From NCBI GenBank assembly GCA_017536545.1, contig JAFXHF010000020.1, positions 1-64,000 on the forward strand: a stretch of 64,000 nucleotides of DNA, read 5' to 3'. Positions 1 through 44,899 of this stretch are shown piece after piece. A program made the translations under genes and the position numbers. The DNA is from a bacterium (GTDB lineage: Bacteria > Cyanobacteriota > Vampirovibrionia > Gastranaerophilales > Gastranaerophilaceae). The notes beneath the pieces are model-generated. The model was not told the origin of the DNA, did no database searches, and worked only from the letters and a program-made list of their open reading frames with translations. The number at the start of each line of letters is the position of its first letter. Position 1 is the first letter of the stretch.

Positions 1-3000
1 CATTGTTTGGTTTTGAGCTACGTTTGCTCCAACTGATACGGTTGTTGCGTTGAAGAAGTTACCTTTATACATTGTAACTGTTCCACCGATTAAGCCACCG
101 TTTTGTGTTGAATCTACTCCAGAGTATCTTTGAGATGCACCATTGTATCCGATGTATCCTGTGATTACTCTATCCCAGCCGTGTTTTAGGGATTGCATTT
201 CTGTATCAAAACCAACTAATGTTCCATATGTGTTATTGTGTACTTTTGGACCATTTTTAAGGCCTACTGTTTCAAATGTTGCATATGGTTTTACCCAAAC
301 TGACGATTCTTCTTGAGATGGTTGGTAAAGTGGGGAGAATCTGCCCATGTCTGTTGCATCACCTGTGATAGATAGAGCGTATTTGTTTCTGTTTTTCATT
401 GATACACGTTCAAGATATGGGATATTCATGAATGTATCCGCATTACCAAATGCGTGGTTGAATGTTTGGTTTACAGTACCGATAGCACCAACAGTTGCGG
501 ATGTTGAACCACCTAAGACCGCAGGGTTGAAATCAATAGATGGATTTGACGGTGTTGGTGTAGGTGTTTCTGAACCAGTTGAGCCACCTGCACTTGGACG
601 AGCAAAGATAAAGTAGCCCGCATCAGCACGGTTATCGTATGATACGTTATATTTATAAATTGGTGTGTATGCTACTGTTTGATGAGTATTATTTACACCA
701 TTACCAACTTCAGCAAGTCCATTTGTTACATTATCTTTCAATCCTTGTTCTGCAAATAGAATTTGTGTGGTTGGGTCTACAGCATCAGATAGCAAATTCA
801 TGCCTGTAACATTCAAATTACCGCCGTGACTGCCGTATTCTGAAGCTGTGAACCTGTCCATTGTCTTGTTTGCCAAATCTACATCAACCAATACATTTGT
901 ATCACCTGTCACAGTTAAACTATTTAAAGCTGATACACCTACTTGGTTGTTTATCATTGATAACATTCCTGAATGTAGTTTTAAGTTGTTACCGTCTAAG
1001 TTTGAATCGTTTAATAAATACAAGTTAGTATCGATTAAATGTGTTGTTGAATTTTTGATTTTGTTGTTTAGAATAAATCTTGATGCACTATCACCGATAA
1101 TATATGTTTCGTAATTATTCTCACCATTGATATTGTCATCTAGTTGAATTGTTGAACTATTGGTAACATCAAAGATTAACTTACCGCCATTCATATAAAT
1201 TGCGTTATCGTCAATTTCTTCACCATTTTTTGTGTAGTTACCTGAAATTAGAGTTGTTTCACCATTATCTGCATTTACTTTAATTGTTGCATCTTTAACA
1301 TAAACAGCACCACCTTTTGCTCCATCACTAGATGATTCTGCAAAGTTATTCAATATATTAGCGTTTTTCAACGTAATAACAGCTTTATTTGCACGAACAT
1401 CATCTACAGCTAGTTGAGGTTCTGGAGGTAGAGGAGTATTTGGGTCAACTGGTTGTTGATTATTTGCAAATAATTCACTTGGATCGGTATAAATTACACC
1501 TAGATAATCTTCCAATAGTGTGAAATACTGATCCTCTGTCATTCCCATTCCTTCTAACTCAGTATCAAACTCAGATTTTGATATTGATTGTGACTCAGAA
1601 GCAAGATATTCAATATTGGTAACAGTACCATCGGCAATAAAGGTTTTTAGCTGATCTTCGGTTAATACATTACCTTCAGAGTCTTGAACAATAAAGAATT
1701 GTTTATATATGCTTCCATCAGAATTTAAGATTTCTAACTTAGCATATTGAACAGTATCCGTTGGAATTACACTAGGACCACCGATTGTTCCTAGTGTACC
1801 TTCAAGATAAATCGCTCCACCATATGCCAAAGATTCAGCTTGTACGTAGTTATTTACAAACTCTGCTGTAATATTTTCGATTGTACTAGGATAAACTGCA
1901 TTATTATTAATAACATAAACAGCACCACCATAAGCTGAAGAACCTTTTGCGTAGTTGGAAATAAAGCTACCTGAAATATTTTCAATTACAGTATATTCAC
2001 TCTGGTAATATGGTGACGACAAATGGACTGCACCACCTCTTACTGATTCCTCAGATTGAACATAATTACCATTAAACGTACCATTTATATTTTTAATAGA
2101 AGTTGCATAATCTCCAGAAATAGATATTGCACCACCGCTATCTTCAGCATAGTTTTGAATAAAATTAGCAGTAAGATTTTCTATAGTTCCATTGACACTC
2201 ATCGCACCGCCAAGACCTTGTTGTGAGTAATTTTGTATAAAATCTGCGGTAATATTTTTAATTGTACCTGAGTTTGAATTACTAATAGCACCACCAGAAC
2301 CTGTGGCATAGTTGCCAATAAAGTTACCAGTAATCAAATCGATTGTACCAGAGTTGCTAAGAGCTCCTCCTGAACCTTCTGAGTAGTTTTGTATAAAATC
2401 TGACGTAATATTTCTAATAGTACCAGAGTTATAAATCGCACCACCACTACTATAACTACCAGCTTCAGCATAATTTTTAATAAAATTACCTTTAATATCA
2501 CCGATAGTGCCACCGTTATAAACAGCTCCGCCATAACTCCTAGTAGTATATACAGGTGAGCTTAAATAGTTACCAATAAAATTACCTGTTATACTAGTTA
2601 TAGAACCATTTTTTTTATTATAAATCGCACCACCATATGGAGCGTAATATTTTTTATCACTATAGGCATAGTTACCAATAAAATCACCTTTTAAATCACC
2701 AATAGTACCACTGTTATAAATTGCACCGCCATAAGTATCATTACCTGTAGATACCGTATAATTTTGAATAAAATTACCAGTTATATCACCAATAGTACCA
2801 CCGTTATAAATAGCACCACCAGATGCCGACTTATCAGTAGAAGTGGATTGAATATAGTTACCTATATAATCACCTTTTAAATCACCAATAGTACCACCGT
2901 TATAAATAGCACCACCAGATGCCGCATGTCCTGATACGGCATAATTACCTATAAAATCACCAATTATATCACCGATAGAGCTCCAAGAGGAGTTATAAAT

Positions 3001-4671
3001 AACCCCACCATATATATACCCTGAACCATAATCAGGAGGCAACTTACCTGATTCTGAATGGTTACCAACGAAATTACCAGTAATATTACCAATAGAGGCA
3101 TCTTTCCCATAATTATAAATAACCCCACCTTCCAGAGATTTATCAGCATCAGAATAATTCCCGATAAAATCACCTGTAATATCGCCGATTGTTTTATTAT
3201 TAAAAATTATCCCGCCGTCAACATCATAGTTCCCTGTAGAATAATTACCAACAAAATCACCTGTAATAGAAGCTATTATTCCATTATTTTCAATAATTCC
3301 ACCCTCACCAATATATGGAGAATTCTCTGTAACCGTATAGTTTCCAATAATATCACCTACGATATTTCCAATAGAGCCACTATTGAAAATTACAGCACTA
3401 CCAGCTACTTTATCAGTAGATTTAACAAAGTTCCCGATAAAATCACCTGTAATATCACCAATAGTACCAGAGTTATAAATAGCACCACCACGAGCACTCT
3501 CCTCAACAGATTCTAGATAGTTACCAATAAAATCACCTTTTAAATCACCAATAGTACCACTGTTATAAATTGCACCACCATAAAGCTTTGCATCATAATT
3601 CGATTTTATATAATTTCCAATAAAGTTTCCGGTTATAGATTCAATTTTAGCATCTGCACCAGTGTTAGAAATAGCACCACCATATGCTTTTATATACTGA
3701 CCTGAATTCCATCCAGGTACATCCACATAGTTACCTATAAAATCACCTACAATATTACTTATTGAACCACCATTATGAATAGCACCACCATATGCATATG
3801 GATCATAAGTAGAATTATCTGAATGTGCCTTTACATAGTTCCCAATAAAATTACCTGTTATGTTACCAATTTCTCCGCTAGTACTATTAAAAATAGCACC
3901 ACCATATACCTTTACACCATTATCAGAGGTCGCTGAAACATAATTACCATTAAACGCACCTGTAATATCGCCCATAGCACCGGTGTTATAAATAGCTCCA
4001 CCATATGCCTTTACATCATTACCGGTTGCTAAAACACTACTACCATTAAACGCACCTGTAATACCGCCTATAGCACCACTGTTATAAATAGCTCCACCAA
4101 GTCCAGAATAAACATCACCATCACCTGACACAACAAGCGTTTGCTTAAAATCACCTTCTAGAATGGTTGATGAAATATCTGTTTTGTTTTCTATTCTACT
4201 ATCAGATGTAAGTATAGAATTATATTTATGTTTATATGTAAAAGTTACAGGTTGACCTAATACCGTAACAGATGTACCAACAGAGGTGTTCCCGTTTTCA
4301 ATATCACCATAGAGGTTATCAAATTTATATGTATAAGGTACTTCTTGGTTTAAAACTGTGAAATTAGTAGTTACAGAGGCATCCCCTTCACCATAAGTTA
4401 CACTTTTCAAATTGATTTGATAGTTGATGACTTCTGTAATACCTGTGTTGTCGTATTTGTATAGAGCAAAATTATCAGAGGTATGAATATTTGTATCTAG
4501 AGTATATGCACTATTTTCACCCAACGTTGGTTTGATAGGTGTTTCATTGGCTTGAGCACTATTTGTAGCACCCATTGAAGCTAAACCTACCAATGCAGCA
4601 GTAGATAAGCATTTAAGGGTTACCCCCCCCCCGAAAGCATTATTATTACTTAACTTAAGACTATTTCTCAT
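1..4671 (-). CDS. Giant Pmp-like autotransporter adhesin, C-terminus beyond the left edge
   Basis: I translated this frame by hand; the lines read from the start at 4671 to base 1 are open, giving 1557 codons, and the gene continues outside the window. The start ATG at 4671 follows a GAGGTG ribosome site. Residues 1-41 form a signal peptide ending in AQA before NETPIKP; codons 14-16 and part of 17 are a run of ten G. From about residue 190 to 960 come some 24 modules of the form GGAIYN-SGTIGDITG-DFIGNY, the GGA(I/V/L) and FxxN motifs of chlamydial polymorphic outer membrane proteins. A linker rich in Pro, Thr and Ser lies near residue 1370. The last 110 or so residues (VWVKPYATFE, GWDRVITGYIGYNG) look like an autotransporter beta-barrel. 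The protein should be exported by Sec, insert its barrel in the outer membrane and display a beta-helical passenger. Ligand unknown. Confidence 0.9.
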   Translation of the reverse strand, partial: MRNSLKLSNNNAFGGGVTLKCLSTAALVGLASMGATNSAQANETPIKPTLGENSAYTLDTNIHTSDNFALYKYDNTGITEVINYQINLKSVTYGEGDASVTTNFTVLNQEVPYTYKFDNLYGDIENGNTSVGTSVTVLGQPVTFTYKHKYNSILTSDSRIENKTDISSTILEGDFKQTLVVSGDGDVYSGLGGAIYNSGAIGGITGAFNGSSVLATGNDVKAYGGAIYNTGAMGDITGAFNGNYVSATSDNGVKVYGGAIFNSTSGEIGNITGNFIGNYVKAHSDNSTYDPYAYGGAIHNGGSISNIVGDFIGNYVDVPGWNSGQYIKAYGGAISNTGADAKIESITGNFIGNYIKSNYDAKLYGGAIYNSGTIGDLKGDFIGNYLESVEESARGGAIYNSGTIGDITGDFIGNFVKSTDKVAGSAVIFNSGSIGNIVGDIIGNYTVTENSPYIGEGGIIENNGIIASITGDFVGNYSTGNYDVDGGIIFNNKTIGDITGDFIGNYSDADKSLEGGVIYNYGKDASIGNITGNFVGNHSESGKLPPDYGSGYIYGGVIYNSSWSSIGDIIGDFIGNYAVSGHAASGGAIYNGGTIGDLKGDYIGNYIQSTSTDKSASGGAIYNGGTIGDITGNFIQNYTVSTGNDTYGGAIYNSGTIGDLKGDFIGNYAYSDKKYYAPYGGAIYNKKNGSITSITGNFIGNYLSSPVYTTRSYGGAVYNGGTIGDIKGNFIKNYAEAGSYSSGGAIYNSGTIRNITSDFIQNYSEGSGGALSNSGTIDLITGNFIGNYATGSGGAISNSNSGTIKNITADFIQNYSQQGLGGAMSVNGTIENLTANFIQNYAEDSGGAISISGDYATSIKNINGTFNGNYVQSEESVRGGAVHLSSPYYQSEYTVIENISGSFISNYAKGSSAYGGAVYVINNNAVYPSTIENITAEFVNNYVQAESLAYGGAIYLEGTLGTIGGPSVIPTDTVQYAKLEILNSDGSIYKQFFIVQDSEGNVLTEDQLKTFIADGTVTNIEYLASESQSISKSEFDTELEGMGMTEDQYFTLLEDYLGVIYTDPSELFANNQQPVDPNTPLPPEPQLAVDDVRANKAVITLKNANILNNFAESSSDGAKGGAVYVKDATIKVNADNGETTLISGNYTKNGEEIDDNAIYMNGGKLIFDVTNSSTIQLDDNINGENNYETYIIGDSASRFILNNKIKNSTTHLIDTNLYLLNDSNLDGNNLKLHSGMLSMINNQVGVSALNSLTVTGDTNVLVDVDLANKTMDRFTASEYGSHGGNLNVTGMNLLSDAVDPTTQILFAEQGLKDNVTNGLAEVGNGVNNTHQTVAYTPIYKYNVSYDNRADAGYFIFARPSAGGSTGSETPTPTPSNPSIDFNPAVLGGSTSATVGAIGTVNQTFNHAFGNADTFMNIPYLERVSMKNRNKYALSITGDATDMGRFSPLYQPSQEESSVWVKPYATFETVGLKNGPKVHNNTYGTLVGFDTEMQSLKHGWDRVITGYIGYNGASQRYSGVDSTQNGGLIGGTVTMYKGNFFNATTVSVGANVAQNQTM
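1790..4100 (-). repeat. Degenerate Pmp-like passenger repeats, about 24 modules
   Basis: About 24 tandem modules of roughly 28-40 codons, each with GGA(I/V/L) followed by FIGN, FNGN, FIQN or similar. At DNA level short words recur on the plus strand, such as ATAAATAGCACCACC and CCAATAAAATCACC, so unequal recombination between modules is plausible. Modules near the N-terminal end are longer and carry different inserts (PGWNSGQYIK, HSDNSTYDPYA), while the middle ones are nearly uniform. The count comes from reading the translation and may be off by one or two. Confidence 0.85.
4623..4632 (-). repeat. Poly-G tract (G10 on coding strand) in the signal peptide
   Basis: Ten consecutive C on the plus strand, ten G on the coding strand, 39 bases after the start codon. 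With ten G the frame is open and encodes Gly-Gly-Gly-Val in the n-region of the signal peptide. Losing or gaining one G would abolish the product. In a genome this AT-rich a G10 run is conspicuous; I saw no other G or C run longer than six. Confidence 0.9.
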
Positions 4672-4706
4672 ATCCAACACCTCATGTTTTAACACACACA
4701 TTGGTG

Positions 4707-44161: not shown

Positions 44162-44899
44162 ATGACAAGAAGATCCGGTTTTACTTTAGCAGAAGTATTG
44201 ATTACTTTAGGTATTATTGGCGTAGTTGCTGCTATGACTATTCCAAACTTGATTGCAAACACTAATGGTGCTAAATTTAGATCACAATTTAAAAAATCTA
44301 TTTCTACATTGAACCAAGCTGGTTTAATGTCACAAGCACAATACGACTTTGACTATGCTGGTACATCAGCAGTATGTAATGCTACAACAGCTACAGCAGC
44401 TGCTGAACACCCAGAAGTTGTAATGACATTCTGTGCTATCTTAAACGGTACATTAACTGGTCAAACTTATGTTGGTGCAGCTAATACATTGAAACGTAAC
44501 GCTAACGGTTCTGAAGTAGCTTACTCATTTGTTAAAAAATACACATTAAAAGACCCATCAAACTACTATGCTTACACATTAGCTGATGGTTCTATCGTAG
44601 CATTTGACAAATTAGCTCAAGGTTGTGAATTACCTATCGGTACTCAAATGACTAACACAGTTATTTCTACTGGTGTATTGAAAAACTGTACTGGTTTCAT
44701 CGACGTTAACGGTGTAACTCTTCCTAACAAAGAAGTTTCTTGTACTGCAACAAACTCAGCTACACAAGAAGTTCAAACACCATGTGCTGTTAAAAACGAT
44801 GCTAACCACATGACAGACGTATTCCCAGTAGTATTCCACGATGCAACTGTTGAACCTGCATCAAATGCTGCTAAATATGTATTAACTTCTTCTAAATAG
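44162..44899 (+). CDS. Prepilin-like protein, paralogue 2
   Basis: 245 residues. MTRRSG then FTLAEVLITLGIIGVVAAMT: cleavage after Gly6, mature Phe1 and Glu5. The globular part has paired cysteines and shares long blocks with the gene at 38767 (NTNGAKFRSQFKKSISTLNQ, AEHPEVVMTFCAILNGTL, VFHDATVEPASNAAKYVL). Single-gene unit with GAAAGGTG before the ATG and a strong terminator after. Probably a surface pilin or pilin-like protein of a type IV pilus or type II-like system. Confidence 0.87.
   Translation: MTRRSGFTLAEVLITLGIIGVVAAMTIPNLIANTNGAKFRSQFKKSISTLNQAGLMSQAQYDFDYAGTSAVCNATTATAAAEHPEVVMTFCAILNGTLTGQTYVGAANTLKRNANGSEVAYSFVKKYTLKDPSNYYAYTLADGSIVAFDKLAQGCELPIGTQMTNTVISTGVLKNCTGFIDVNGVTLPNKEVSCTATNSATQEVQTPCAVKNDANHMTDVFPVVFHDATVEPASNAAKYVLTSSK

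Follow-up and report, generated by a model that had tools for sequence, protein, structure and literature searches.

The window analysed here is a stretch of 64,000 nucleotides whose base 1 is the first base of contig C21 (G000:C21:1-64000) in the genome G000, a 99% complete assembly of 1.90 Mb in 29 contigs. A gene coding for a surface protein is read from the minus strand at this contig start (Table 1). Inspection of the window located a run of ten C on the plus strand at 4623-4632, which is G10 on the minus strand and follows the ATG of this gene after 39 nt (13 codons). Both the coordinates and the open reading frame agree here with the original prediction. When the length of the tract is changed in silico, the frame of the gene is open with G7, G10 and G13 and meets a stop at 16-19 codons with G8, G9, G11 or G12. 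A slip of one base, to G9 or G11, thus breaks the frame before the hydrophobic core, as had been proposed. The gene is in frame, i.e. ON, in the assembly. It had also been described as giant: 1557 codons are open, a figure that is a lower limit since the contig start truncates the gene.

Table 1. Features of the window and tract-bearing genes of the genome G000.
Feature	Position	Strand	Description
Surface-protein (autotransporter-like) gene	1..4671	-	ATG at 4671-4669; 1557 open codons to the contig start (minimum)
Shine-Dalgarno-like GAGGTG	4678..4683	-	Upstream of the ATG; from inspection and SD score
Conserved 5' block of three paralogues	4590..4690	-	About 100 bp; tract length (9, 10, 12 G) is nearly the sole difference
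13-codon leader MRNSLKLSNNNAF	4633..4671	-	Same in three paralogues except for one base
G10 tract	4623..4632	-	Codons GGG GGG GGG G(TA), Gly-Gly-Gly-Val; ON length
Signal-peptide core and AxA-type end TLKCLSTAALVGLASMGATNSAQA	4549..4620	-	3' of the tract; judged by inspection
GGA(I/V)-type repeats	1821..4098	-	24 motif matches, mostly 28-40 residues apart
Start of the C-terminal barrel-like region (SVWVKPYATF...)	1..303	-	Sequence as in the complete C21 paralogue
Tract-less prepilin-like gene	44162..44899	+	Short in-frame leader, in contrast to the tract-bearing prepilins
Tracts of three autotransporter-like genes (G000)			G10 in frame; G12 and G9 out of frame
Tracts of three prepilin-like genes (G000)			G9, G10 and G11, all out of frame
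Tract of a hexapeptide-transferase-like gene (G000)			G12, in frame

The window protein had no Pfam match above cut-off. The structure modelled from positions 2872-4551 (minus strand) is a beta solenoid with a mean pLDDT of 75, mostly 80-98 over the repeats. A Foldseek search with this passenger model returned beta-helix proteins including autotransporter passengers, all at non-significant E-values. On inspection, the complete C21 paralogue has a barrel-like C-terminal sequence, the window copy being truncated; this region had no Pfam match and a PDB sequence search gave no relative. Of the traits of type V autotransporters, a signal peptide (by inspection) and a predicted beta-helical passenger are present, and the model makes it likely that the window protein is autotransporter-like. 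The protein had been labeled Pmp-like and the chlamydial pmp genes named as the closest repeat type. The label goes back to the short GGAI repeats and nothing else. Membership in Chlam_PMP (PF02415) was rejected, as the profile reached 11.5 bits (E 0.42), below its cut-off of 20.6. A relationship to Pmp is not supported. The nearest conserved element is rather the organism's own 5' cassette, common to prepilin genes. Only two named relatives of the protein were found, both tract-less and from a single roe-deer rectum MAG; the tract-less homologues L174 and L175 imply that the switch would be an optional add-on.

The G10 tract is the sole G/C run of at least 8 in the window, where the next longest is 6 and about 0.002 runs of at least 10 are expected from composition. 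The genome G000 contains 50 runs of G6 or more, among which eight are of at least 8 (about 1-2 expected) and five of at least 10. Eight such long runs in 1.90 Mb bear out the earlier remark that G runs are rare in this genome. All eight are directly preceded by C, mostly in a TTTC-Gn-TAACC-like context; seven are located 30-65 nt 3' of a start codon and the eighth within a decayed short ORF. Among the three autotransporter-like paralogues that share the 5' block, the G10 copy of the window is ON and the G9 and G12 copies are OFF. Outside the block their downstream sequences are unrelated, as is the upstream sequence of one copy. The C-terminal part is common to them where comparable and the passengers in between differ, as in cassette-like shuffling. 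Two contigs, C4 at its end and C21 at its start, break off inside paralogues of the window gene, which indicates that assembly fails in the parts they share.

Runs of G8 or more were detected in 43 of the 46 genomes of the genus, with a maximum of 63 in G001, although these counts mix two classes. The second class (G8-G10), of the form Gn-TAAAT(G), has no preceding C and no clear gene start (L060, L061, L066, L078, L079), and the genome G004 is rich in it. The number of tracts per genome reaches about 75, mostly before prepilin-like genes. In G001, about 50 such genes follow the pattern ATG-30 nt-G8..12-PLKLS..GFTLAEVLITLG, and the in-frame reading of one tract gene of this genome contains the N-terminal methylation motif PF07963 (24.4 bits, cut-off 21.2). 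The leaders of tract-less prepilins from these genomes are short and in frame. Across the order, 49 of 286 genomes show the tract-to-prepilin pattern, spread over 11 of the 50 genera; across the phylum, 52 of 386 do, every one in the window's own family. In other genera, tracts are also located before acyltransferase, rhamnan-synthesis and glycosyltransferase genes. At L130 (G001:C63, 38644), a G10 follows AAGCTTTAAAAGAC with no start codon found and a long open frame downstream; within the genus of the window, this may be a cassette that has been inverted or has decayed.

The cassette around the tract spans about 80 nt and consists of a Shine-Dalgarno sequence, the ATG, 9 or 10 codons (9-13 in the fuller span), a C, the G run and a spacer. 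In an alignment anchored on the tract (G001, G038, G043), information is near zero 5' of the Shine-Dalgarno sequence, high through the ATG, leader, tract and spacer, and drops about 30 nt past the tract. For 82 of 110 tract-bearing prepilins the nearest neighbor of the gene body was in another genome, and for 83 of 110 the nearest neighbor of the cassette was in the same genome, the partial sampling of some genomes lowering same-genome matches for cassette and body alike. The discordance between cassette and body is 55:0, all in one direction, which argues for spread or homogenization of the cassette within genomes. The window gene belongs to a system that extends across the family. Dispersed repeats, GTCATCCTGAACT.GTTTCAGGATCTCA / CHPELDSGSHNI, adjoin tract cassettes upstream at L025, downstream at L008 and near 3670-4000 at L174; at L008 the repeat seems to have disrupted the tract gene. 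Contigs often begin or end near a tract (G043:C72:1 and contig ends of G013, G012 and G122), as expected of a repeated cassette that breaks short-read assemblies. The poly-G tract at L127 (G001:C62, near 333145) is interrupted by a scaffold gap (NN) that has 12 G to either side, as if the assembler had failed through length variation.

Most tract-bearing prepilin genes are out of frame in the sampled assemblies. Of 173 such loci in seven genomes, 14 are in frame and 159 are not, as a rule because of a single base; with homogenized cassettes these loci are not independent and the independent observations are nearer the number of genomes. In G038, G043, G045, G046 and G076 the tracts mostly lack one base and need +1; in G001 and G000 they mostly have one base in excess. 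In a search blind to stops, the stretch from the tract to FTLAEV was open in the pilin frame at 105 of 106 loci. Read-through of the tract must therefore matter at times. Rescue of most out-of-frame genes by other starts was rejected: among the 159 loci, another start is available upstream in only 4 and, with a Shine-Dalgarno sequence, inside the gene in 19. Differing tract lengths in related genomes, proposed earlier as a check of switching, were observed: the fragmented assembly G043 has tracts of G8, G9, G10 and G11 in a single geometry, of which G10 is the in-frame length, and of two orthologues 96% identical the one with G8 is in frame and the one with G11 is not. Tract-less relatives also occur (L174 and L175), and length is varied in some genomes and uniform in others (G10 in 46 of 49 in G076, G9 in 10 of 10 in G045). 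Such uniformity of length and offset is not predicted by free slippage alone; like the tract-less relatives, it counts against the switch reading. For the uniform offset, the likeliest origin is the shared geometry of the cassette, through homogenization. A constant cost of the ON state was rejected as the cause of the pile-up one base below ON, the tracts collapsing to short lengths in a simple Markov model.

The orientation of the tract obeys a strand rule. In the genus g2, the core is found both ways relative to the gene, as TTTC-G10-CAnTTTAAAGCTT or as its reverse complement, read as ATG..GAAGCTTTAA..TG-C10-GAAAA; the inverted copies specify proline in place of glycine. All 50 tracts of G076 (49 of 49 without duplicates) have their G run on the strand of positive GC skew. 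Poly-G is found there in 29 of 29 co-directional genes and poly-C in 15 of 15 head-on genes (Fisher p about 4e-12). The skew-positive strand was taken as the leading strand, in line with established knowledge. On this basis the G-rich strand is the leading strand at 126 of 129 tracts in five genomes, including 8 of 8 in the window's genome; two of the three exceptions have weak local skew and their contig neighbors agree with them. Placement of the G run on the leading strand, i.e. on the lagging-strand template, probably tunes slippage. Loss of mismatch repair was rejected as a factor, mutS1 being present in all 12 genomes tested. With mutS intact, slippage rates may be low.

The full proteins could alternatively be produced by programmed recoding, that is RNA polymerase slippage or -1 ribosomal frameshifting at a tract of fixed length, with no switching. 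The 159 of 173 prepilin loci off by one, the offset uniform in most genomes, the uniform tract length in g2 and the pilin frame that stays open would all fit such a mechanism. An RNA-level mechanism would, however, fix the slippery site to the mRNA, whereas the core is inverted in the head-on genes of G076; this genome reads it as poly-G in some genes and as poly-C in others, both needing +1 (39 of 44). Orientation follows replication and not the mRNA, which favors DNA replication slippage. Moreover, G001 and G000 mostly show an offset of -1 and the other genomes one of +1, near-identical paralogues differ in tract length, and the window gene is in frame. Recoding is in our view improbable.

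Miscalled tract lengths, all genes being truly in frame, would be a source of error in sequencing or assembly rather than biology. Long reads with undercalled homopolymers could underlie G076, G046 and G038, whose contigs are the longest. One annotated G11 was mostly G12 according to Penno et al., and the Bifidobacterium breve study (PMC9187656) warns that annotated tract lengths can be wrong. The same pattern is nevertheless present in G043 (110 contigs, some starting in or near a tract) and G293 (150 contigs), both apparently assembled from short reads, and Illumina sequences such poly-G lengths accurately according to PMC6321876. Offsets in both directions within G001 also argue against miscalling, to which we give slightly less credence than to recoding. 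Least credible of all is that glycine codons and composition passively generate functionless G runs, even though glycine is tolerated in signal-peptide n-regions and L174 and L175 work with other sequence. Eight runs against 1-2 expected in an AT-rich genome, the long ones all at gene starts and in one conserved context, are difficult to reconcile with it, as are the out-of-frame state of most tracts and the proline encoded by inverted copies.

It is thus highly probable, from the sequence evidence, that the G10 is the slip-prone switch of a translational poly-G contingency locus. The tract of the window gene has the at least 8-9 bases and the location in the 5' coding region that characterize such loci, the frame is lost with one base and rescued with three, and tract length differs between near-identical copies (9/10/12 in paralogues, G8/G11 in orthologues). 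The earlier switch reading is sustained by this frame logic, the paralogue tracts, the chance statistics and the family-wide cassette, but its Pmp-like label is not. Replication slippage at the run would add or remove a base in living cells. With G10, G7 or G13, ribosomes that begin at the ATG would read on through the signal peptide and into the passenger (ON); with other lengths, they would stop within 16-19 codons and expression would be OFF. The portable cassette of about 80 nt, homogenized per genome, precedes many surface genes, prepilin-like ones and others. By default most of these would be OFF by one base, slippage turning single genes on, so that each cell would show a sparse and random subset. 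The selective reason and the route of cassette spread are presumed parts of this model. More tentatively, with somewhat more against it than for it, the cassette may be a dispersed DNA element that gene conversion or a mobile process has spread and homogenized within genomes before unrelated surface genes, its orientation set by the replication fork and inverted to poly-C at head-on genes.

Several known systems resemble this one in part. The vlhA genes of Mycoplasma gallisepticum likewise form a large paralogous surface repertoire with most copies OFF under repeat-length control, but their GAA repeats are upstream of the gene and act on transcription, not on the reading frame. In Neisseria pilC, the tract sits in the signal peptide. 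As here, the pilC homopolymer is within the frame of a pilus-related surface gene, but the system comprises two genes and no cassette family, and phase-variable alleles are confined to pathogenic species (PMC5953494). The closest precedent is found in the sortase-dependent pilus G-tracts of B. breve, also a gut commensal: the tract lies in the first gene of the pilus cluster, its usual length is OFF by one, it changes by replication slippage, and the in-frame length is enriched in the mouse gut. That system concerns two loci of sortase pili, whereas dozens of prepilin-like or autotransporter-like genes are involved here, and the part of the study cited reports no shared portable cassette or strand rule (PMC9187656). 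The Campylobacter genome is likewise AT-rich, and its phasome comprises many poly-G tracts, which in surface genes mostly occupy the coding strand; the commonest lengths are 9G and 10G. Its tracts are mainly in surface-modification genes, the cited parts describe no conserved surrounding cassette, and poly-C is coding in 5% of cases versus about a third in G076 (PMC6321876, PMC4965091). Campylobacter jejuni lacks mismatch repair (PMC4235727), whereas mutS is present here. The poly-G pmp genes of Chlamydia pneumoniae, mentioned as hypothesized in the cited part of PMC4514472, share surface location, short GGAI-like repeats and homopolymer tracts; they differ in that the window protein is under the Chlam_PMP cut-off and the 5' context is unrelated. 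A literature search for phase variation in Melainabacteria or Gastranaerophilales found nothing relevant.

Poly-G contingency loci are known mainly from pathogens, and the present family is probably one of gut Cyanobacteriota, an attribution that draws on the homologues in the roe-deer MAG and on the earlier judgement. It appears to combine up to about 75 tracts per genome with a conserved cassette, a strict strand rule and a default-OFF setting. Such a system would offer a natural test of how strand polarity affects the rate and direction of slippage and of how contingency tracts spread to new genes. If the cassette is a dispersed element, contingency elements would gain a new, portable class, and what replication-strand polarity contributes to phase variation could be tested directly. 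These observations also imply that many surface genes of this lineage are missed or truncated by gene callers and MAG annotation.
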